Assembly (NCBI GenBank): GCA_035461765.1
Contig: DATHUY010000158.1
Location: forward strand, 1-35,007
Length of the DNA stretch: 35,007 nucleotides
Direction: 5' to 3'
Origin: Longimicrobiales bacterium
GTDB lineage: Bacteria; Gemmatimonadota; Gemmatimonadetes; Longimicrobiales; RSA9
The position numbers and the translations under genes were made by a program. A model generated the notes under the pieces. The model was given only the letters and a program-made list of their open reading frames with translations, ran no database searches and was not told the origin of the DNA. Below are positions 6,894 through 35,007 of this stretch, one piece after another; the first letter of the stretch is position 1, and every line of letters begins with the position of its first letter.

Positions 6894-6978
6894 TTTCTCA
6901 AGGTCTGGATCACGATCTCGTGCTGGCGCGGGCCCGCCCACGCGATCCGCTAACGATCCCGATACCGCTCCCGGTTCA

Positions 6979-7008
6979 GTTGCGATCTGTATCGGGTCCG
7001 CCGTAACA
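6979..7008 (+). promoter_or_regulatory. Candidate sigma-70 promoter for the choice-of-anchor B gene
   Basis: TTGCGA, an 18-nt spacer and TAACAT resemble -35 and -10 boxes. The start of transcription would fall near 7015, giving a leader of about 60 nt that carries the GGAGGT ribosome site at 7063-7068. Confidence 0.35.
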
Positions 7009-14813: not shown

Positions 14814-14850
14814 TCCCGCGAGCCGCACACGAACACGCTCCCGATCCCGC
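14814..14850 (-). repeat. CCCGATCCCG-family dispersed repeat, partial copy
   Basis: The segment with CCGCACACGAACACGCTCCC followed by GATCCCG is nearly the reverse complement of the left arm of the element at 23335-23464. It lies between the ArsR regulator and the toxin-antitoxin operon. Confidence 0.6.
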
Positions 14851-14883
14851 CCCCGCTTTAGGTGACACCCGTTCGACACGATC

Positions 14884-19209: not shown

Positions 19210-19378
19210 CAACCGTCCAGTTCGCGATAGGCGTCGGCAGGATTGGACGATTGAGGGCGGCAAACACGGTCAATGTTCCAGTGCCCCCGCGGGAAGACAT
19301 CTCGATGGACGGTTAGCCGCGCCAGATGCCGCGAATGTTCCACTGGCCAGAATTCGCGTCACCAACCGGACGATTGCA
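19210..19378. repeat. Cluster 1 of a ~45-bp intergenic repeat (one inverted, two direct units)
   Basis: Units share AATGYTCCA, about 24 variable bases and GGACGGTT. Unit A (19210-19254) is inverted; units B (19271-19315) and C (19333-19378) are direct, 62 nt apart. The same pattern of one inverted unit followed by direct units recurs at 24722-24961. Between the inverted and first direct unit, ATTG and CAAT flank a short loop, so the DNA or RNA could fold back. The repeats lie in a spacer and have no coding potential of note. Confidence 0.65.
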
Positions 19379-19450
19379 AGTCGGCAGCACCTGCCCCGGC
19401 ACGTCGCCCCGGGCAAGTCGCCAGCACCTGCCCTGGCACGTCGCCCCGGT
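19377..19450. repeat. Two tandem 37-bp direct repeats
   Basis: The copies at 19377-19413 and 19414-19450 each run from CAAGTCG through CACGTCGCCCCGG and differ at about three positions. They begin at the end of the cluster 1 repeat and contain the motif CAGCACCTGCC. Confidence 0.8.
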
Positions 19451-19858
19451 CGTCGGCAACCGGTCCGAACCGCGTCGATCGCGCACGCGACGCCCGACGC
19501 AACCGGTTCTTTCCGGCGCAACAATATTCGCCACTCCCTACATGTTTTCGCCCTCCGCCGCTCCCACGCGCCCTACGGTCGCAGCCGCGAAACACTCACT
19601 GTGCCCTGCACCGAGCCGAATCCATGCCGACACGCTCCCGGCTAGCTGGCGTTCACCAAACCATTTAGCACGCTCAGCCTCGCCGGTACCCGGCCCACGT
19701 GTGTCCGAAGCGCTTTACCCCCGAAAGGGAGCCGCTCCGCGGCACATCAGATGCCGTACGAACACCGGTTGCGCGATCAACGCCTCTACCCGATCCGCGC
19801 ATCAGCAGACAAGACGCATTGCACGTCGGCGACGCTGCCGACCACCAGGGAGACGCAC
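19451..19858. other. Rest of a long gene-free spacer
   Basis: This part of the spacer before the PPC-domain gene has no convincing reading frame on either strand. It is slightly richer in A and T than the flanking genes (for example CAACAATATTCGCC near 19520) and may hold the promoter of the downstream gene, but no clear -35/-10 pair could be fixed. The purine-rich AGGGAGA before 19859 is the ribosome site of the next gene. Confidence 0.4.
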
Positions 19859-20695
19859 ATGTTCACGAATACGAAGTCGCCTGCCCTCGTACCGGTACTG
19901 CTCGCAGTGCTCGTTGCTGCGCCCGCGGCCGCGCAGAGCACAGTCGCGCAGGCCACGGTGCCGGTCGCGGCGGCGACGCATGCCCAGCCCGCATTGACCA
20001 GCCTCGTCATCGCGGTCGGCGAGACGAAGACGGGCTCCCTCACGGACGAGGATCCGCGACTGGATGAAGGCGAGCACTATCACGCCTACGACTTCTACGG
20101 TCGGGCAGGACAGCGCATCGCCGTATCGCTCCGCTCGTCCTCCTTCGACAGCTATCTCGCCATCATCACCAGCGACATCGAGTGGGAGAACCAGGACGAC
20201 GACAGCGGCGGCGACTCCAACGCCCTTCTCGATGTCACGCTGCCCGTGACCGGCCGCTACGTCATCATCGTAACCACGTACGAGGGCGATGAGACCGGCG
20301 ACTACACGCTGTCGGTGAGCGCCCTCGAGGCCAACACCGCGCGCGACACCGAGGAATGGGTGCAGTACGGCCAGGCCTCCGACAACGACGCCAGCCTGTT
20401 CTACCTGCCGTCCAGCATCCGGAACACCGGCGACAACATCCTTCAGGTGTGGACCCGCTGGACGTATCCGGGCATGCAGCCACCCAGCACCGGCGATGCG
20501 CAGTACGATTCGGAGAAGCGACTCGTGCGGGTGGACTGCGGCGGGGACGCGCTCGGCCTGGTCTCGTTCGTCGAGTACGCGGGCGACACGGCCGTCAATA
20601 ACTGGACGGCGAAGGACGTGGAGATGAATCCCGCGGTGCCGGGATCCGTCGGCAGCTCACTGCTGGATCGGGTATGCTCGAACCGGGCACCATAA
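19859..20695 (+). CDS. Exported PPC-domain protein with adhesin-E-like C-terminus
   Basis: The product is 278 residues. The start at 19859 follows AGGGAGA and begins a signal peptide (MFTNTKSPALVPVLLAVLVA, cut after AAAQ); an upstream in-frame ATG at 19751 lacks these features. Residues ~50-155 form a pre-peptidase C-terminal beta domain (GEHYHAYDFYGRAGQRIAVS, FDSYLAIITSD, DDDSGGDSNALLDVTLPVTG, DYTLSV). Residues ~163-275 resemble the surface-adhesin E family (EEWVQYGQ..., ILQVWTRWTYP, KRLVRVDCGG). The two Cys (in VDCGG and RVCSNR) may form a disulfide. It is probably periplasmic or surface-located; its role is unknown. Confidence 0.8.
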   Translation: MFTNTKSPALVPVLLAVLVAAPAAAQSTVAQATVPVAAATHAQPALTSLVIAVGETKTGSLTDEDPRLDEGEHYHAYDFYGRAGQRIAVSLRSSSFDSYLAIITSDIEWENQDDDSGGDSNALLDVTLPVTGRYVIIVTTYEGDETGDYTLSVSALEANTARDTEEWVQYGQASDNDASLFYLPSSIRNTGDNILQVWTRWTYPGMQPPSTGDAQYDSEKRLVRVDCGGDALGLVSFVEYAGDTAVNNWTAKDVEMNPAVPGSVGSSLLDRVCSNRAP

Positions 20696-20837
20696 GCACG
20701 GCCGTGAGGCCCGCCCGGATGCTGTAGCCCGGCGCGGGGACAGTCGCTCAGAGCCGGGGGGCGGTGGCGCTTCCCCCCGCCAGACCTTACCATAAGGGTT
20801 CAACCACCCAGCGACTGACCCCGACGCCCGGCCTCAC

Positions 20838-21551
20838 GTGATACGACACCGGCATCTTTTCGCCTTTGCGGCGCCCCTGATTTTCGCCGGCTGCGCCTCG
20901 ACCGCACCGGTCCCGGCCGCATCCCCGGCCGACGCCGCCGAACCGGCGGCCACCGAAGACCACGCCGGCCACCAGACCGCGCAACCCGTCCAGCCCGCCG
21001 ACTCGCAGCACGACGCCCACGCAGCGCACGGCCAGCTCGCGGCTACGGCAGGACCCGGCTTCAGCGTAGCCGACGTCCGCTTCATGCAGCACATGATCGG
21101 GCACCACGACCAGGCACTGGTCATGGCCGCCATGGCACCGTCGCGCGGCGCGAGCGAGCACTTCCTCCGGCTGGTCGAGAAGATCGAGATCTCGCAGACC
21201 GACGAGATCGGCCTCATGAAGCAGTGGCTGACCGACCGCAACCAGCCGATCCCCGACGACGCGTACATGCACGGCATGATGATGCCCGGCATGCTCACAC
21301 CCGCACAGCTCGAGCAGCTCGGTGCTGCCCGCGGCCGCGAGTTCGAGCGGCTCTTCCTCACATTCATGATCCGGCACCACGAAGGCGCGCTCCAGATGGT
21401 CGACGAGCTGTTCGACACGCCCGGCGCCGGCCAGGACCCCGACATCTTCCGCTTCGCCACCGACGTCGACGCCGACCAGCGCGACGAGATCTACACGATG
21501 AGCGTCATGCTCGACATGCTCGAGAACCCCGCAAGGAGCCCAGCCCGATGA
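20838..21551 (+). CDS. DUF305 lipoprotein
   Basis: The product is 237 residues with a lipobox (FAGC, Cys ~19), followed by an Ala/Pro/His-rich linker (EDHAGHQ, HDAHAAHG) that could bind metal. The DUF305 domain (~75-230) shows both signature helices: FMQHMIGHHDQALVMAA and FMIRHHEGALQMVDEL, plus a Met-rich stretch (MHGMMMPGML). DUF305 proteins are ferritin-like helical exported proteins often found near copper genes; a copper-binding role is suggested by the His/Met content but is not shown. Its stop overlaps the next start by 4 nt. Confidence 0.92.
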   Translation: MIRHRHLFAFAAPLIFAGCASTAPVPAASPADAAEPAATEDHAGHQTAQPVQPADSQHDAHAAHGQLAATAGPGFSVADVRFMQHMIGHHDQALVMAAMAPSRGASEHFLRLVEKIEISQTDEIGLMKQWLTDRNQPIPDDAYMHGMMMPGMLTPAQLEQLGAARGREFERLFLTFMIRHHEGALQMVDELFDTPGAGQDPDIFRFATDVDADQRDEIYTMSVMLDMLENPARSPAR

Positions 21552-23329
21552 CGAAATCCGCACGCATGAAGTCGTACGCCCGAGCCACTGCCGGTATCGC
21601 GACGTTGGCGGCCGCCGTCGCAACCACGGCACCCGCGTTCGCGCAGGACACGATCGCCACGATGAATGATCCGCGCGCGCACCTGGCCGCCGGTACGGAA
21701 AACACCGCGGCGTACGCCGGCTGGAACATGGAGCTGACATCGTGGTCACCGAAGCCCATGGAGTTCGACTCCGCACGCGGCCTTGCCTACATCAACTCCG
21801 ACCTCGCGTTCCGCGGCAACACGCTCTACCAGGGCAACTTCAGCGGCTTCAGCGTCTGGGACATTTCGAACCCGGCAGGCCCCGAGCTGCTCAGCACCGT
21901 CGTCTGCGCCACCGACCAGGGCGACCCGTCCATCTACGGCAACCTCCTGTTCATCTCCGCCGAGTCCGGCCGCTCCCGCAAGGACTGCGGCATGCAGGGC
22001 GTGGAGGATGGCGCGGACCGCATGCGCGGCGTGCGCATCTTCGATGTGAGTGACCCGCGCAACCCGCGTCTCGTGAAGAACATCCAGACCTGCCGCGGCT
22101 CGCACACGCACACCATCGTGCCGCATCCCACAGACCGCAACGTGATCTACATCTACGTCGGCGGATCGTCGTCCGTGCGCGATGCCGGCGAAGTCCCGGA
22201 GATCGAGTGCTCGGAAGGCACCGTCGCCGAGAACGCGAACACGTCGCAGTACCGCGTCGACATCATCCGCGTCCCGCTCAACAACATCGAGCAGGCCGCT
22301 GTCGTCGGCTACGCCCGCATTTTCGAGGACCTGCCGCGCTCGCCCGGCCGCGCCGGTGTCGCCGCGGACGAAGCGGCCGCAAACAACCGGCGCGCCACCG
22401 GACCGTCCGGCTGCCACGACCTCACGTCCTATCCGGCCTACAATCTCGTCGCGGGATCGTGCGGCAGCTTCGGCATCCTGCTCGACACGAAGAACCCCGA
22501 GAAGCCAGTGCGCCTCGATGCGAAGTCGGACCTGAACTTCTCGCTCTGGCACACGGCCGTGTTCAGCAACGACGGCAGCTCCGTCGTGTTCACCGACGAG
22601 TGGGGCGGCGGCACGTCCCCGCGCTGCCGCATCACCGACCCCGAGCGCCTCGGCGGCAACACGATCCTGACGATCGGCGACAACGGCGCCATGACGCAGC
22701 ACGGTTACTTCAAGATGCTAGCGGCGCAGACGGACACCGAGAACTGCGTGTCCCACAACGGCGGGCTCATCCCCGTGCCCGGCCGCGACATCATGGTCCA
22801 GGGCTGGTACCAGGGCGGCGTCAACGTATTCGACTTCACCGACCCGGCGAACCCGATCGAGATCGCGTACTTCGACCGCGGCCCGGTTGACGACGAAAAC
22901 CTCGTGGTCGGCGGCTCCTGGGGCGCGTACTGGTACAACGGCCACATCTATTCGTCCGAGCTGTCCCGCGGACTCGACGTGCTGGAGCTCACGCCGAACG
23001 AGCACCTGTCGCAGAACGAGATCGATGCCGCGAAGCTCATCCGCATGGAGGAGTACAACCCGCAGATGCAGCCGCAGCTCGTGTGGCCGGCCGCCTTCCC
23101 CGTCGTGCGCTCGTACCTCGACCAGCTCGTGCGCAACAACGGTCTCCCCGAAGCCCGTACGACGGCGATCGCCGCCGCCATCGACGCCGCCGAGCGCGCT
23201 ACCAGCACCGCTCGCCGCGACCAGCTGAACCGACTCGCCTCACAGCTCGATGCGGATGCAGCGAACGCCGCCGACGCCGAGCGTGTTCGCGCCATGGCGG
23301 AGGCCGTCCGGGCGCTGGCCGGGGCGTAG
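21548..23329 (+). CDS. Exported LVIVD-repeat protein
   Basis: The product is 593 residues. The ATG overlaps the DUF305 stop (ATGA). A signal peptide is present (MTKSARMKSYARATAGIATL, cut after AFAQ). The body is a beta-propeller with LVIVD-type phrases: FSGFSVWDISNPAGPELL, GVRIFDVSDPRNPRLVKNI, SFGILLDTKNPEKPVRL, GVNVFDFTDPANPIEIAYF. Several Cys are spread through it. The last ~90 residues are a helical Ala/Arg-rich tail (ARTTAIAAAIDAAERATS...). It is common next to DUF305 genes, and the overlap suggests the two act together outside the membrane. The function is unknown. Confidence 0.9.
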   Translation: MTKSARMKSYARATAGIATLAAAVATTAPAFAQDTIATMNDPRAHLAAGTENTAAYAGWNMELTSWSPKPMEFDSARGLAYINSDLAFRGNTLYQGNFSGFSVWDISNPAGPELLSTVVCATDQGDPSIYGNLLFISAESGRSRKDCGMQGVEDGADRMRGVRIFDVSDPRNPRLVKNIQTCRGSHTHTIVPHPTDRNVIYIYVGGSSSVRDAGEVPEIECSEGTVAENANTSQYRVDIIRVPLNNIEQAAVVGYARIFEDLPRSPGRAGVAADEAAANNRRATGPSGCHDLTSYPAYNLVAGSCGSFGILLDTKNPEKPVRLDAKSDLNFSLWHTAVFSNDGSSVVFTDEWGGGTSPRCRITDPERLGGNTILTIGDNGAMTQHGYFKMLAAQTDTENCVSHNGGLIPVPGRDIMVQGWYQGGVNVFDFTDPANPIEIAYFDRGPVDDENLVVGGSWGAYWYNGHIYSSELSRGLDVLELTPNEHLSQNEIDAAKLIRMEEYNPQMQPQLVWPAAFPVVRSYLDQLVRNNGLPEARTTAIAAAIDAAERATSTARRDQLNRLASQLDADAANAADAERVRAMAEAVRALAGA

Positions 23330-23334
23330 CGGAT

Positions 23335-23464
23335 AACGAAAACGGGATCGGGATCGGGAGCGTGTTCGTGTGCGGTTCGCGGGTAACGGCAGTTCCCGAT
23401 CCCGGAACGGCAGGTCCCGATCCCGCTAACCGACACGATCCCGATCCCGATCCCGCGTTCGTTT
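23335..23464. repeat. CCCGATCCCG element with ~30-bp terminal inverted repeats
   Basis: The left end (23335-23364: AACGAAAACGGGATCGGGAT and on to GAGCGTG) is nearly the reverse complement of the right end (23434-23464). Between them lie two more copies of TCCCGATCCCG. It begins 5 nt after the stop of the LVIVD gene and could form a long hairpin that stops transcription. Related copies are at 23982-24037, 14814-14850 and 24969-25005. It is MITE- or REP-like, without any transposase here. Confidence 0.75.
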
Positions 23465-23552
23465 CATTCCAGCGGTCTTGAAATCGAACGACTGTTCTGC
23501 CAACGTTTTGTGAGACCAATCCGGTCTGACCGAACCTCAGGAGAACAGCAGT

Positions 23553-23936
23553 ATGCGAAAGGCATTATTCGCAGTCGCACTCATGGCGGCTGTGGCGGGG
23601 TGCGTTTCCGTCAACAAGTCCGTGCTCTCGAGCTCACGGGTGGCGTACCCCGTGCCCCGCGACTCCGTGCACGTGTATCTGCCCGGTGACAGCGTGCCGC
23701 CGCACGAGCGCATCGCGATTCTCACCGCGAAGGGCGACGAGAACACGACCAACGAAGCTCAGATGCTCGACAAGATGCGGCAGGAAGCTGGCAAGCTCGG
23801 CGCAAACGCTATCGTCCTCGGCGACATGACGGATCCCAGCAGCACGTCACGCGTGCTCGGCGCCCTGTTCGGCACGCCGTCGAACAGGAAGGGCCAGGCA
23901 ATCGCCATCTTCGTCCCCGACCTGCGCCGCCAATGA
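23553..23936 (+). CDS. Small lipoprotein of unknown function
   Basis: The product is 127 residues. A CAGGAG ribosome site is placed before the ATG. The lipobox VAGC puts the lipidated Cys at ~17. The mature part has a mixed alpha/beta pattern: ERIAILTAKGDENTTNEAQM, then LDKMRQEAGKLGANAIVLGD. The last phrase resembles small YbjQ- or DUF4156-like lipoprotein domains, but the match is loose. The gene is framed on both sides by copies of the CCCGATCCCG repeat, so it sits alone as its own unit. Confidence 0.75.
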   Translation: MRKALFAVALMAAVAGCVSVNKSVLSSSRVAYPVPRDSVHVYLPGDSVPPHERIAILTAKGDENTTNEAQMLDKMRQEAGKLGANAIVLGDMTDPSSTSRVLGALFGTPSNRKGQAIAIFVPDLRRQ

Positions 23937-23981
23937 TCTGAATGAATACGGGATCATGTCTGGTGCAGCGCCCCCGGTAGC

Positions 23982-24037
23982 CGCAGTTCCCGATCCCGCT
24001 AACCGAACACAATCCCGATCCCGATCCCGCGTTCGTT
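23982..24037. repeat. CCCGATCCCG element, second copy (right half)
   Basis: This segment repeats the right half of the element at 23335-23464: GCAGTTCCCGATCCCGCTAA, CCGAACAC, then three GATCCCG units and GCGTTCGTT. It lacks a 21-nt duplication present in the other copy, and its left arm is worn (23941-23981). It ends 13 nt before the DinB start. Confidence 0.75.
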
Positions 24038-24050
24038 CAAAGGAGTCGTC

Positions 24051-24545
24051 ATGTCGATCGGAAATGATCTGATCCCCGAGTTCGAGCAGGAGATGGCCGC
24101 CACGCGTCGCGTCATCGAACGGGTGCCCGACGACAAGCCGGACTGGAAGCCCCACCCGAAGTCGTTTTCGATCGCACACCTCGCGCAGCTCGTGGCGTGG
24201 ATGCCCGGCTGGATCGCGCAGACGCTCGAGCATCAGTCGCTCGACCTGACGAAGGCCGGCGGCTACAGCAACGAGAGCACGGCAACACTGCTCGCAACAT
24301 TCGATGAGAACGTCCGCGCTGCGCGTGCTGCACTCGAGGCGTCGCAGGATGAGGACTGGGACGCGGACTGGTCGCTGAAGATGGGCGACAAGGTGCTCAT
24401 GACACTGCCGCGGACCGCCGTCATCCGACAGCACATCAGCCACCTCAGCCATCATCGCGGTCAGCTCACCGTCTACCTGCGCCTGCGCGATGTGCCGGTG
24501 CCGTCGATCTATGGACCGACCGCCGACGAGGGCTGGGGAAGCTGA
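24051..24545 (+). CDS. DinB-family four-helix protein
   Basis: The product is 164 residues, preceded by AAAGGAG 6 nt before the ATG. It has the DinB/DUF664 helical-bundle pattern: LIPEFEQEMAATRRVIERVP, then SFSIAHLAQLVAWMPGW (metal-ligand His in helix 2) and IRQHISHLSHHRGQLTVYLR (two His in helix 4). These three His normally hold a divalent metal. Family members include thiol-dependent transferases such as bacillithiol or mycothiol enzymes; the substrate here is unknown. There is no signal peptide. Confidence 0.92.
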   Translation: MSIGNDLIPEFEQEMAATRRVIERVPDDKPDWKPHPKSFSIAHLAQLVAWMPGWIAQTLEHQSLDLTKAGGYSNESTATLLATFDENVRAARAALEASQDEDWDADWSLKMGDKVLMTLPRTAVIRQHISHLSHHRGQLTVYLRLRDVPVPSIYGPTADEGWGS

Positions 24546-24647
24546 GCGGCCATCGAATCCGATCGTCGCCGGCTGCCTTCGGCAGGTGAGCGGAGGGGCG
24601 AGGCCTGCGGCTGACACCCGAACCGGCTCCGCGGCTTGGAAGGCGGC
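24546..24647. other. Start of the repeat-filled spacer after DinB
   Basis: The spacer 24546-25005 has no supported gene. Its first ~100 nt show only a weak inverted motif (CTTCGGCAGGTG) and no clear terminator; the remainder is occupied by the three repeat types listed separately. Confidence 0.4.
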
Positions 24648-24708
24648 GGTGAGGCCGGGAAGTCGGTGGTAAGGCCGGGAAGTCGGTGGTGAGGCCGGGA
24701 AGGTCGGT
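24648..24708. repeat. Three tandem 20-21-bp repeats
   Basis: The units GGTGAGGCCGGGAAGTCGGT (24648-24667), GGTAAGGCCGGGAAGTCGGT (24668-24687) and a 21-nt version with one extra G (24688-24708) follow each other directly. Low divergence suggests recent slippage. Confidence 0.85.
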
Positions 24709-24721
24709 GGTGGACGTTGCG

Positions 24722-24961
24722 AACCGTCCATTTCGCGACGGGCTTCGCGAGGACTGGAGCATTGAGAGCGCTATGCGCGGCCAATCTTCCATCGTCCCCG
24801 CGGAATTCCAGTTCGATGGAGACTTGACCGCACCATGCGCGCTGAATGCTCCACGCGCCGGAATCTCCGCCACCGATTGGACGGTTGACGACCCGGGTCG
24901 TCCGCAGCATGCTCGCTGAATGCTCCACGCGCCGGAATCTCCGCCACGATTGGACGGTTGA
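24722..24961. repeat. Cluster 2 of the ~45-bp intergenic repeat (one inverted, three direct units)
   Basis: Unit D (24722-24765) is inverted. Units E (24782-24826), F (24844-24888) and G (24918-24961) are direct, at steps of 62 and 74 nt. F and G are almost identical (GAATGCTCCACGCGCCGGAA to GGACGGTTGACG). All share AATGYTCCA, then ~24 bases, then GGACGGTT with cluster 1 at 19210-19378. Confidence 0.75.
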
Positions 24962-24968
24962 CGGCACC

Positions 24969-25005
24969 GATCCCGCGCACGAACACGCTCCCGCTCCCGA
25001 CTTCG
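24969..25005 (-). repeat. CCCGATCCCG-family dispersed repeat, partial copy
   Basis: GATCCCGCGCACGAACACGC followed by TCCCGCTCCCGAC is close to the copy at 14814-14850 and to the reverse complement of the left arm at 23335. It ends exactly at the stop codon of the minus-strand sigma factor gene and may act in 3'-end formation. Confidence 0.6.
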
Positions 25006-25572
25006 TCACAGCACCACCTCCCGCAGCAGCCACTCCCTCGCCCCCAGCCAGTCCCGCCGGACCGTGCGCGTCGTTACACCGAGCGCTTCGGCGATCTCCG
25101 CTTCGGTCATCCCGCCAAAGAAACGGTACTCGACCACGCGCGCCTGGCGCGGATTCACGGTGGCGAGGCGCTCGAGGGCGTCGTGAATCGTGATCAGTGT
25201 CTCGGTGCGTTCTGTTGCCGCGACCTGAATCGCTTCGGCGAGTGTCACACGCGTGAGGCCCCCGCCCCTCTTGGCGGCCACGTGCCGGCGAGCGTAGTCG
25301 ATCAGTACGCGGCGCATGGAGCGGGCTGCCAGCGCGAAGAGCTGTGAGCGGTTCTTCCAGTCCACTTCGTGCTGGTCGAGCAGCCGCATGTACGCCTCAC
25401 TGACGAGCGCCGTCGTGTTCAGGGTATGACCCTGCCGCTCGCGCCTCAGTTGCAGGTGCGCGATCGCGCGTAGCTCGTCGTACACGAATGGAAGCAGCGC
25501 GTCCAGCCTGCTCTCCGGGGTCGTTGCCGCCGTCGACGACATCGATTCGTTCGTCGGTTCCGTCATGACCAT
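25006..25572 (-). CDS. ECF-type RNA polymerase sigma factor (Sigma70_ECF/TIGR02999 type)
   Basis: The product is 188 residues from ATG 25572; a second ATG two codons later (25566) is equally possible. Region 2 contains LLPFVYDELRAIAHLQLRRE and LNTTALVSEAYMRLLDQ; the middle has RSMRRVLIDYARRHVAAKRGGG, a hallmark of this subgroup. Region 4 has VEYRFFGGMTEAEIAEALGV followed by TTRTVRRDW. It would direct RNA polymerase to a small set of promoters. No anti-sigma gene is adjacent. A divergent repeat lipoprotein lies 134 nt away, and a second sigma gene of the same type lies beyond the kinase. Relatives are often coupled to Ser/Thr kinases. Confidence 0.93.
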   Translation of the reverse strand: MVMTEPTNESMSSTAATTPESRLDALLPFVYDELRAIAHLQLRRERQGHTLNTTALVSEAYMRLLDQHEVDWKNRSQLFALAARSMRRVLIDYARRHVAAKRGGGLTRVTLAEAIQVAATERTETLITIHDALERLATVNPRQARVVEYRFFGGMTEAEIAEALGVTTRTVRRDWLGAREWLLREVVL

Positions 25573-34904: not shown

Positions 34905-34955
34905 TCACCGCCGGATCCACCAGCTCGGACCGATCACCGTCGGATCCACCAGCTC
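34905..34955. repeat. Duplicated 22-bp segment at the end of the edge gene
   Basis: TCACCG(C/T)CGGATCCACC and the following AGCTC occur at 34905-34926 and 34934-34955, a step of 29 nt with one mismatch. The second copy is the coding end of the minus-strand gene (SWWIRR and stop); the first repeats it just past the stop. Confidence 0.8.
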
Positions 34956-35007
34956 ACGCCGACGTTCAGTCGCAGGGATGCGTCCCTGATCGCCGACTCC
35001 TCGCGCC
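34934..35007 (-). CDS. C-terminal end of a probable outer-membrane barrel protein (partial)
   Basis: Only the last ~24 residues are inside the window: REESAIRDASLRLNVGVSWW followed by IRR and TGA (34934-34936). Alternating polar and nonpolar residues near the end (LRLNVGVSWW) resemble the last strand of a beta-barrel such as a TonB receptor or OmpA-like protein. The rest lies beyond the right edge. Confidence 0.5.
   Translation of the reverse strand, partial: REESAIRDASLRLNVGVSWWIRR

Follow-up and report, generated by a model that had tools for sequence, protein, structure and literature searches.

What do the short repeats represent that stand in two clusters between the genes of a Longimicrobiales contig, and with what are they associated? 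The window analysed here is the 35,007-nt contig DATHUY010000158.1 of assembly GCA_035461765.1. A previous sequence-only reading of this window described seven units of ca. 45 bp, arranged in each cluster as one inverted unit followed by direct units, and proposed a repetitive extragenic palindromic (REP) or miniature inverted-repeat transposable element (MITE)-like repeat, a protein-binding array or a structured RNA. Our analyses revealed two copies of a single 165-bp element with rigid geometry, which is repeated throughout the genome and recurs beside genes for a fusion of an AbiEi-type protein with a nuclease domain. We propose, with a probability of roughly one half, that the element is a multi-site DNA target of this fusion protein and has spread as a non-autonomous REP-like repeat.

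Architecture and genomic distribution of the element

All seven units were found where the sequence-only reading had placed them, measuring 41–43 bp each, with three in the first cluster and four from 24722 to 24959. The first cluster and the first three units of the second are two copies of one 165-bp element, aligning gap-free as three homologous units (Table 1). Each copy consists of three imperfect palindromes of 42, 43 and 42 bp at offsets 0, 61 and 123, which differ in sequence among themselves within an array, and six 9-bp half-sites lie at the unit ends (L, AAnnnTCCA; R, TGGAnnnTT). The 19-bp stretches between the units are also inverted repeats (8 + 3 + 8), perfect in many copies outside the window and imperfect within it, where 4–5 of the eight pairs are Watson–Crick. 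Because every unit is an imperfect palindrome, unit orientation is nominal, and because the 165-bp element as a whole is close to a dyad, ‘inverted’ and ‘direct’ units are not meaningfully distinguishable; the layout of one inverted unit followed by direct units was therefore a misreading of a near-symmetric element. Of the proposed steps of ca. 62–74 nt, the regular spacing was retained (61 and 62 bp in both copies), but 74 nt belongs only to the extra seventh unit, a local tandem duplication of copy 2's third unit. As arrays, the two copies scored 15.8 and 16.8, whereas none of 20 dinucleotide-shuffled versions of the window exceeded 6.2; as that reading had supposed, the repeats are not random.

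The window's genome (G000; a 4.68-Mb assembly in 171 contigs, with the window as contig C158) was scanned with a pattern of three half-sites at fixed spacing, allowing up to three mismatches. The scan, which the sequence-only reading had proposed as a check, returned 68 matches (33 forward and 35 reverse) vs. none with the pattern read backwards. In the stretches fetched around them, 34 arrays were recognised, 29 with six half-sites, four with seven and one with four. Their location between genes was also borne out: 30 of the 34 arrays overlap no called open reading frame (ORF) by more than 10 bases, and the ORF calls at the other four (L068, L072, L092 and L095) are putative. The orientation of the flanking genes was unbiased (9 ++, 7 +−, 7 −+, 5 −− and 6 with a contig end or an uncalled neighbour).

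Pairwise identity among 22 gapless copies in G000 was 0.72–0.83 in the half-sites, 0.50–0.60 in the 19-bp spacers and 0.33–0.38 in the inner parts. Given conserved half-sites and near-random inner parts, uniform decay of dead repeats does not account for the pattern. The geometry is similarly constrained: over 60 arrays from several genomes, 120 of 123 R–L gaps measured 19 bp and 148 of 168 L–R gaps measured 24 or 25 bp, and the spacing between half-sites alternates between 33–34 and 28 bp. In some pairs of copies the similarity ends close to the element. Loci L122 and L115 of the congener G001 are 86% identical across 178 bp (−11 to +1 relative to the element), with little else in common between the otherwise unrelated loci, and L076 and L074 of G000 are 85% identical over 208 bp, from −23 to +18. 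Some other pairs have flanking repeats in common (L070 and L081, 78% over 336 bp).

Real-looking arrays with the half-site word of G000 were found in G001 (SH-MAG3, JAGTUV01), in the family member G006 and in the order members G055 and G195, the last apparently being the same genome as G062 (via L143), since the match places agree. They were further found in G061 (Longimicrobiales IP29b_bin.11) and partly in G063, a metagenome-assembled genome named Actinomycetota. When Gemmatimonadota were scanned with two mismatches, 17 of 395 genomes had a match; six are real or probable (G000, G001, G006, G055, G195 and, less surely, G353), and the rest were chance singles by eye. The Actinomycetota scan, with a G063-like word, matched G063 alone among 396 genomes. 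A collection-wide exact scan yielded 27 stretches, of which seven (four of G001, L137, L143 and L133) were judged real by eye, following detailed reading of eight loci. The scan of relatives suggested by the sequence-only reading recovered the three-unit geometry in several related genomes.

Tandem repeats occurred in 22 of the 30 element-containing gaps of G000 (3467 of 12,957 bases), compared with 8 of 53 element-free gaps at the same loci (330 of 10,653 bases) and 7 of 43 gaps in a control of 200 kb of random sequence (292 of 9557 bases). The repeat units vary by locus, and many begin within a few bases of the element. At L118 and L119 of G001, the element is immediately preceded by extra partial tandem copies of its first 30–50 nt, which resemble duplication scars. 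In 28 of 32 cases in G000, despite mixed gene orientations, the sequence to the left of the element is richer in G than that to its right; outside G000 this holds in 15 of 24 cases, including all seven in G061. The GC skew flips sign at G000 elements, for example at L071, L073, L079 and L092, being G-rich before and C-rich after the element.

An AbiEi-nuclease gene beside the arrays

Comparison of flanks between genomes identified a gene adjoining arrays in G000 (L075, 3611–4519, on contig C72), G001 (L119), G006 (L125) and G063 (L201); the G000 gene has two arrays upstream and one downstream. The encoded protein of ca. 300 aa combines an AbiEi-type helix-turn-helix (HTH)/antitoxin region with a C-terminal DUF559/MTES_1575 (Vsr/EDxHD-like) nuclease domain. 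Pfam assigned AbiEi_4 and DUF559/MTES_1575 to the proteins of G000, G001 and G006, and PADLOC classified all four proteins as AbiEi (E = 4e-28 for that of G000). All 39 homologues compared share residues E207, D234, E245, H252 and D261 without exception, and E207, D234, H252 and D261 probably represent the EDxHD/Vsr-like catalytic set of E, D, H and D, the motif order being taken from the family name. No AbiEii (PF08843) was detected among 14 neighbouring proteins scanned, so that the pairing of an AbiE toxin–antitoxin system was not observed there.

A profile built from the four proteins detected homologues in 20 of 31 genomes, comprising all eight in which the element had been seen by then and 12 of the 23 others; because we chose the 31 genomes, this count is not a random-sample figure. 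The flanks of 46 nuclease loci were fetched. A word-specific scan of these flanks found 14 six-half-site arrays vs. none in 770 kb of shuffled sequence. A word-independent scanner, which scores the agreement among six 9-mers and two hairpins and ignores the half-site word, was used with a threshold of 26 or more, above the maximum (25.3) of 184 shuffles. At this threshold, an array lay within 600 bp of 16 of the 41 full-length genes (0/184 shuffles), and of 19 once the word-specific arrays were also counted. Natural control loci had an array in 1 of 43 cases, itself a known element. In G005 and G353, one array was found in 182 kb of random DNA vs. nine in 27.5 kb around nuclease genes, and 319 kb of random sequence from G000, G001, G054 and G055 contained one, by eye a tandem-repeat artefact. 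One hit inside a gene (L311, 1674–1838; score 25.7) was a false positive below the threshold, and a true array of G006 (1294–1457) was missed by the word-independent scanner and caught by the word-specific one. The words at the nuclease loci diverge widely while the geometry stays constant (AACGTTGCA at G005 L301, AACGTnACA at G005 L268 and AAGGTAGAG at G353 L307). Arrays or palindromes flank the gene on both sides at G000 L288, G001 L308, G005 L271 and L276, and G063 L201/L241. These palindromic arrays beside nuclease genes suggest a selfish or regulatory DNA system. Taken with the genome scan and the shuffle controls, the linkage upholds the repeated architecture and the ‘REP/MITE-like or protein-binding array’ options of the sequence-only reading. 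Elsewhere in G005, an array at L318 (9781–9946) lies away from any known nuclease gene and has a word resembling that of L271/L276; it is possibly a dispersed copy of a second family.

In a survey of Actinomycetota, AbiEi-DUF559/MTES_1575 genes were present in 24 of 80 genomes, with as many as 13 in one sampled genome. A long palindrome occurred somewhere in the stretch at 9 of 30 loci, compared with 1 of 30 shuffled ones, and similar palindromes stand on either side of the gene at L359, L371 and L241. The long palindromes at L359 (1400–1449 and 2433–2480) and L371 (1319–1378 and 2378–2433) are near-identical, resembling a one-unit version of the layout. Plasmid homologues of the nuclease were few and distant. 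Two plasmid loci were inspected: in one, a 60-bp palindrome closely follows the 3′ end of the gene, and in the other no palindrome adjoins it. The palindrome of L359 had no match in plasmids. No nuclease homologue was found in phages, and viral_contigs contained no relative.

Proposed mechanism

We propose that the six half-sites, as three inverted pairs, form a composite target read by the AbiEi-type protein with its C-terminal Vsr/EDxHD-like nuclease. The AbiEi part may bind pairs of half-sites, and the nuclease domain may nick or cut at the array. Break repair would then spread or maintain copies, leaving locus-specific tandem duplications beside many of them. The dispersed copies, including both in the window, would be non-autonomous intergenic repeats spreading in the manner of REPs and MITEs.

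Several observations weigh against this explanation. No array was found by either scan at 22 of the 41 full-length nuclease loci, including all four tested in the one-contig genome G032, all four in G062 and that of the second G000 gene (L303). Of the 30 Actinomycetota loci scanned, only that of G063 had an array at threshold, and the other 29 lacked a three-unit array. Similarity between nucleases did not significantly predict similarity between half-sites in a Mantel test (r = 0.23; 325 of 5000 permutations reached it), which included loci down to a score of 25.0 and left out the nuclease at L288. For pairs under 45% identity r was −0.05, and beyond near-identical orthologues nuclease similarity was no guide to the word. 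The closest solved structures by profile, 3r3p (‘Mobile intron protein’, E = 0.036) and 3hrl (‘Endonuclease-Like Protein’, E = 0.056), are weak matches. The tandem-repeat excess is clear only in G000; in the other genomes pooled, the values were 0.15 vs. 0.10, and in G001 the trend is reversed (0.05 vs. 0.12). Finally, neither a target duplication nor a clean empty site could be established, and the single orthologous gap compared, in G001, contains an extra gene-like stretch.

A more specific version may also be considered, and we advance it tentatively. Each AbiEi-EDxHD nuclease gene would form a selfish system with its own palindromic array, comparable to the ‘REPtron’ of REP sequences, in which cutting drives non-autonomous spread and leaves tandem-repeat scars; the arrays would have three units in Gemmatimonadota and, in some Actinomycetota, consist of one long palindrome to either side of the gene.

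Alternative explanations

The arrays might instead be operators or decoys. The fusion protein would then only bind DNA and repress its own gene, the dispersed copies would be regulon or titration sites, and mobility would come from elsewhere. There is precedent in AbiEi and Rv2827c, which autoregulate through tandem inverted repeats in promoters (PMC7319586), and some arrays lie shortly upstream of the gene (45 bp at G353 L294, 154 bp at G000 L288), as does the palindrome of G063 L201, shortly before the start codon. However, many arrays follow the gene on its 3′ side or flank it on both, and the invariant nuclease motif has been retained. Moreover, the G000 arrays occupy gaps of every orientation, convergent and divergent, and are therefore not specifically at promoters. 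We consider this explanation doubtful.

It is less probable still that the element is an ordinary REP/MITE-like repeat mobilised by some other transposase (RAYT/TIRYT or an unknown insertion sequence), with the nuclease gene hitch-hiking in element-rich DNA. Dispersed copies with unrelated flanks are consistent with this idea, as is the existence of CGTC REPs, palindromic intergenic repeats without a known transposase (PMC3733652). Searches with the PF01797 and NF047646 models also detected two RAYT-like proteins each in G000 and G001. These are Y1 RAYT/TIRYT-like proteins of ca. 310 aa with an extra C-terminal HTH (G000 C107 L208, 1462–2412, and L210, 916–1854; G001 L209 and L211). Nevertheless, RAYT presence does not track the element: the models matched 2 of the 8 element genomes known by then (G000 and G001) vs. 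14 of 52 others, some of which were later found to carry arrays with other words. Both RAYT genes of G000 lie between inverted repeats of their own (53 nt, 77%; 27 nt, 93%) that are unrelated to the element, and no arrays were present in the fetched flanks of these genes or near the RAYT genes of G001. On these grounds a RAYT/Y1 transposase was rejected as the mover, and the linked transposase for which the sequence-only reading suggested looking was not found in the RAYT-like genes. In addition, the nuclease linkage recurs across different half-site words.

A structured RNA or bidirectional terminator of five hairpins appears quite improbable. It would suit a location between genes, and covarying base pairs, another check suggested for the window, were partly found in the spacer arms. 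In G000, 5.09 of 8 positions paired vs. 4.31 when the 3′ arms were re-dealt within the genome (0 of 1000 re-dealings reached the observed value), and in G001 1 of 1000 did so; related copies inflate such tests. In contrast, this covariation was absent in G061 and G062, where copies are few, and unbiased pair covariation over 27 sequences was mostly noise, with two rows scoring at least 84 dropped as cut off or shifted. The covariation of the spacer arms could also arise at the level of DNA, through palindrome repair or cruciforms. G·T and A·C mismatches were nearly equal (64 vs. 71) and neither strand was preferred (8 same, 6 opposite; n = 55), making a strand-specific RNA unlikely. Elements also lie between divergent genes, and Rfam at gathering thresholds gave no matches in the window. 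The structured-RNA candidate was thus not supported by the Rfam search, the mismatch symmetry or the unbiased pair covariation.

That GC-rich intergenic palindromes merely breed tandem duplications by slippage, with the three-unit form a functionless array of this kind, is very hard to sustain: the tandem repeats at G000 element gaps, unit 7 of the window and the half-unit copies at L118 and L119 are indeed duplications, but a recurring constraint is needed to explain why the three-unit form and its spacing stay rigid across many genomes whose sequences are unrelated, and why the half-sites are conserved.

Comparison with known systems

BOX, ERIC and MITE-type repeats are modular imperfect palindromes of 100–200 bp located between genes. 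The present element differs from them in its linked nuclease and in half-site words that vary by locus at constant geometry. MITEs derived from DNA transposons share terminal inverted repeats with a transposon and are bordered by target-site duplications; the element is near-palindromic, but no parent transposon, clean target-site duplication or empty site was found (one orthologous gap compared). Integron attC sites (GTTRRRY cores with cassettes) and CRISPR arrays (identical repeats with unique spacers) were weighed by reading alone, with no search aimed at them; the repeats within one of the present arrays are not identical.

With their different enzyme, the AbiEi-linked arrays are a variation on the theme of palindromic intergenic repeats (REP/REPtron). 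As in REP/REPIN-RAYT systems with GTAG REPs, short intergenic palindromes, often in inverted groups, accompany a dedicated enzyme gene flanked by copies (PMC3733652). Unlike in those systems, the enzyme is an AbiEi-nuclease rather than a Y1 transposase, three palindromes form a site of 165 bp with rigid spacing, and the GTAG tag is absent. The bases adjoining the hairpin are TGGAnnnTT/AAnnnTCCA with the inner three variable, instead of an unpaired GTAG-type tetranucleotide; no RAYT-like gene of G000 or G001 was flanked by copies of the repeat, and RAYT matches were lacking in six of the eight genomes then known to carry the element. CGTC REPs are mostly dimeric palindromes with 8–9 bp stems, 4–5 bp loops and a terminal, unpaired CGTC on one side, some with structured spacers and none with a known transposase (PMC3733652). 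The arrays share with them the grouping of palindromes, the occasionally structured spacers and the lack of a known transposase, but here the loop is 3, the tag is inconstant, and the half-site word is symmetric and varies between loci.

The binding sites of AbiEi proteins are tandem pairs of 23-bp inverted repeats, and those of Rv2827c have gaps of 13 bp within and 4 bp between pairs, i.e., centre distances of 36 and 27 bp (PMC7319586). The present arrays resemble these AbiE operators in having tandem inverted repeats, alternating spacing (33–34/28 bp here, ca. 36/27 bp there) and a reader, here putative, of the AbiEi family; they differ in having six repeats rather than two or four, a genome-wide distribution and an AbiEi fused to a nuclease (PMC7319586). 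The EDxHD homing endonuclease I-Bth0305I forms a dimer on its target, which spans nearly 60 bp (PMC3943268), close to the unit period of 61–62 bp in our element. The nuclease domain has the same order of invariant residues, E…D…(E)…H…D, and the weak profile match to 3r3p. Unlike EDxHD homing endonucleases, however, the protein was not seen in an intron or intein, has an AbiEi N-terminus and is associated with a repeated array as its putative target. The C-terminal domain belongs to the MTES_1575 family (Pfam PF18741) of Vsr-type restriction endonucleases, described as fused to HEPN, helicase, transglutaminase and winged HTH domains; the accessible text of that account mentions neither AbiEi nor repeats (PMC3710099). 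In the full-text literature, with most subscription papers outside the search, we found no description of the element, of AbiEi and DUF559 together or paired with repeats, or of a palindromic intergenic repetitive element in a Gemmatimonad.

Features of the window

Coordinates of the repeat features are listed in Table 1. Copy 1 lies upstream of a gene with an Adhesin_E/PPC domain, and copy 2 is flanked by a DinB gene and an extracytoplasmic function (ECF) sigma gene.

Table 1. Positions of the element copies, their parts and adjacent tandem repeats in the window
Feature	Position	Strand	Basis or remark
Copy 1, 165 bp, three palindromic units	19211–19375	.	Alignment and shuffle scores
Copy 1 units	19211–19252, 19272–19314, 19334–19375		
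Copy 1 half-sites	19211–19219, 19244–19252, 19272–19280, 19306–19314, 19334–19342, 19367–19375		
Copy 1 spacer 1, 19-bp inverted repeat	19253–19271	.	4/8 pairs Watson–Crick; family-wide arm agreement
Copy 1 spacer 2, 19-bp inverted repeat	19315–19333	.	4/8 pairs
Locus-specific tandem repeat, 37 bp × 2	19376–19449	.	Begins right at the end of copy 1
Locus-specific tandem repeat, 20 bp × 3.7	24638–24712	.	Stops 9 bp short of copy 2
Copy 2, 165 bp, three palindromic units	24722–24886	.	Alignment and shuffle scores
Copy 2 units	24722–24763, 24783–24825, 24845–24886		
Copy 2 half-sites	24722–24730, 24755–24763, 24783–24791, 24817–24825, 24845–24853, 24878–24886		
Copy 2 spacer 1, 19-bp inverted repeat	24764–24782	.	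5/8 pairs
Copy 2 spacer 2, 19-bp inverted repeat	24826–24844	.	5/8 pairs
Unit 7, 74-bp step from third unit of copy 2	24919–24959	.	Repeat family D6: 46-nt copies 24828–24873 and 24902–24947, 96% alike

A second interspersed repeat, ACACGATCCCGATCCCGATCCCGCG-like and in both orientations, was observed in the window at 6951–6981, 14815–14859, 23335–23383, 23423–23463, 24004–24037 and 24973–25007, and also occurs at L070 of G000. Direct repeats at 672–796/6606–6730 (125 nt, 93%) and 1013–1153/6744–6884 (141 nt, 89%) mark a partial duplication of a gene region, and a 29-bp tandem repeat (×2) at 34905–34962 is distant from any element.

Implications

Genes for AbiEi-DUF559/MTES_1575 proteins are widespread in Actinomycetota and Gemmatimonadota, and our literature searches yielded no biochemical role for them. 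A word-specific DNA target beside the gene would make the function of these proteins directly testable. It would also add a non-Y1 enzyme class to the explanations of palindromic intergenic repeats, and could account for the origin of some locus-specific tandem repeats.

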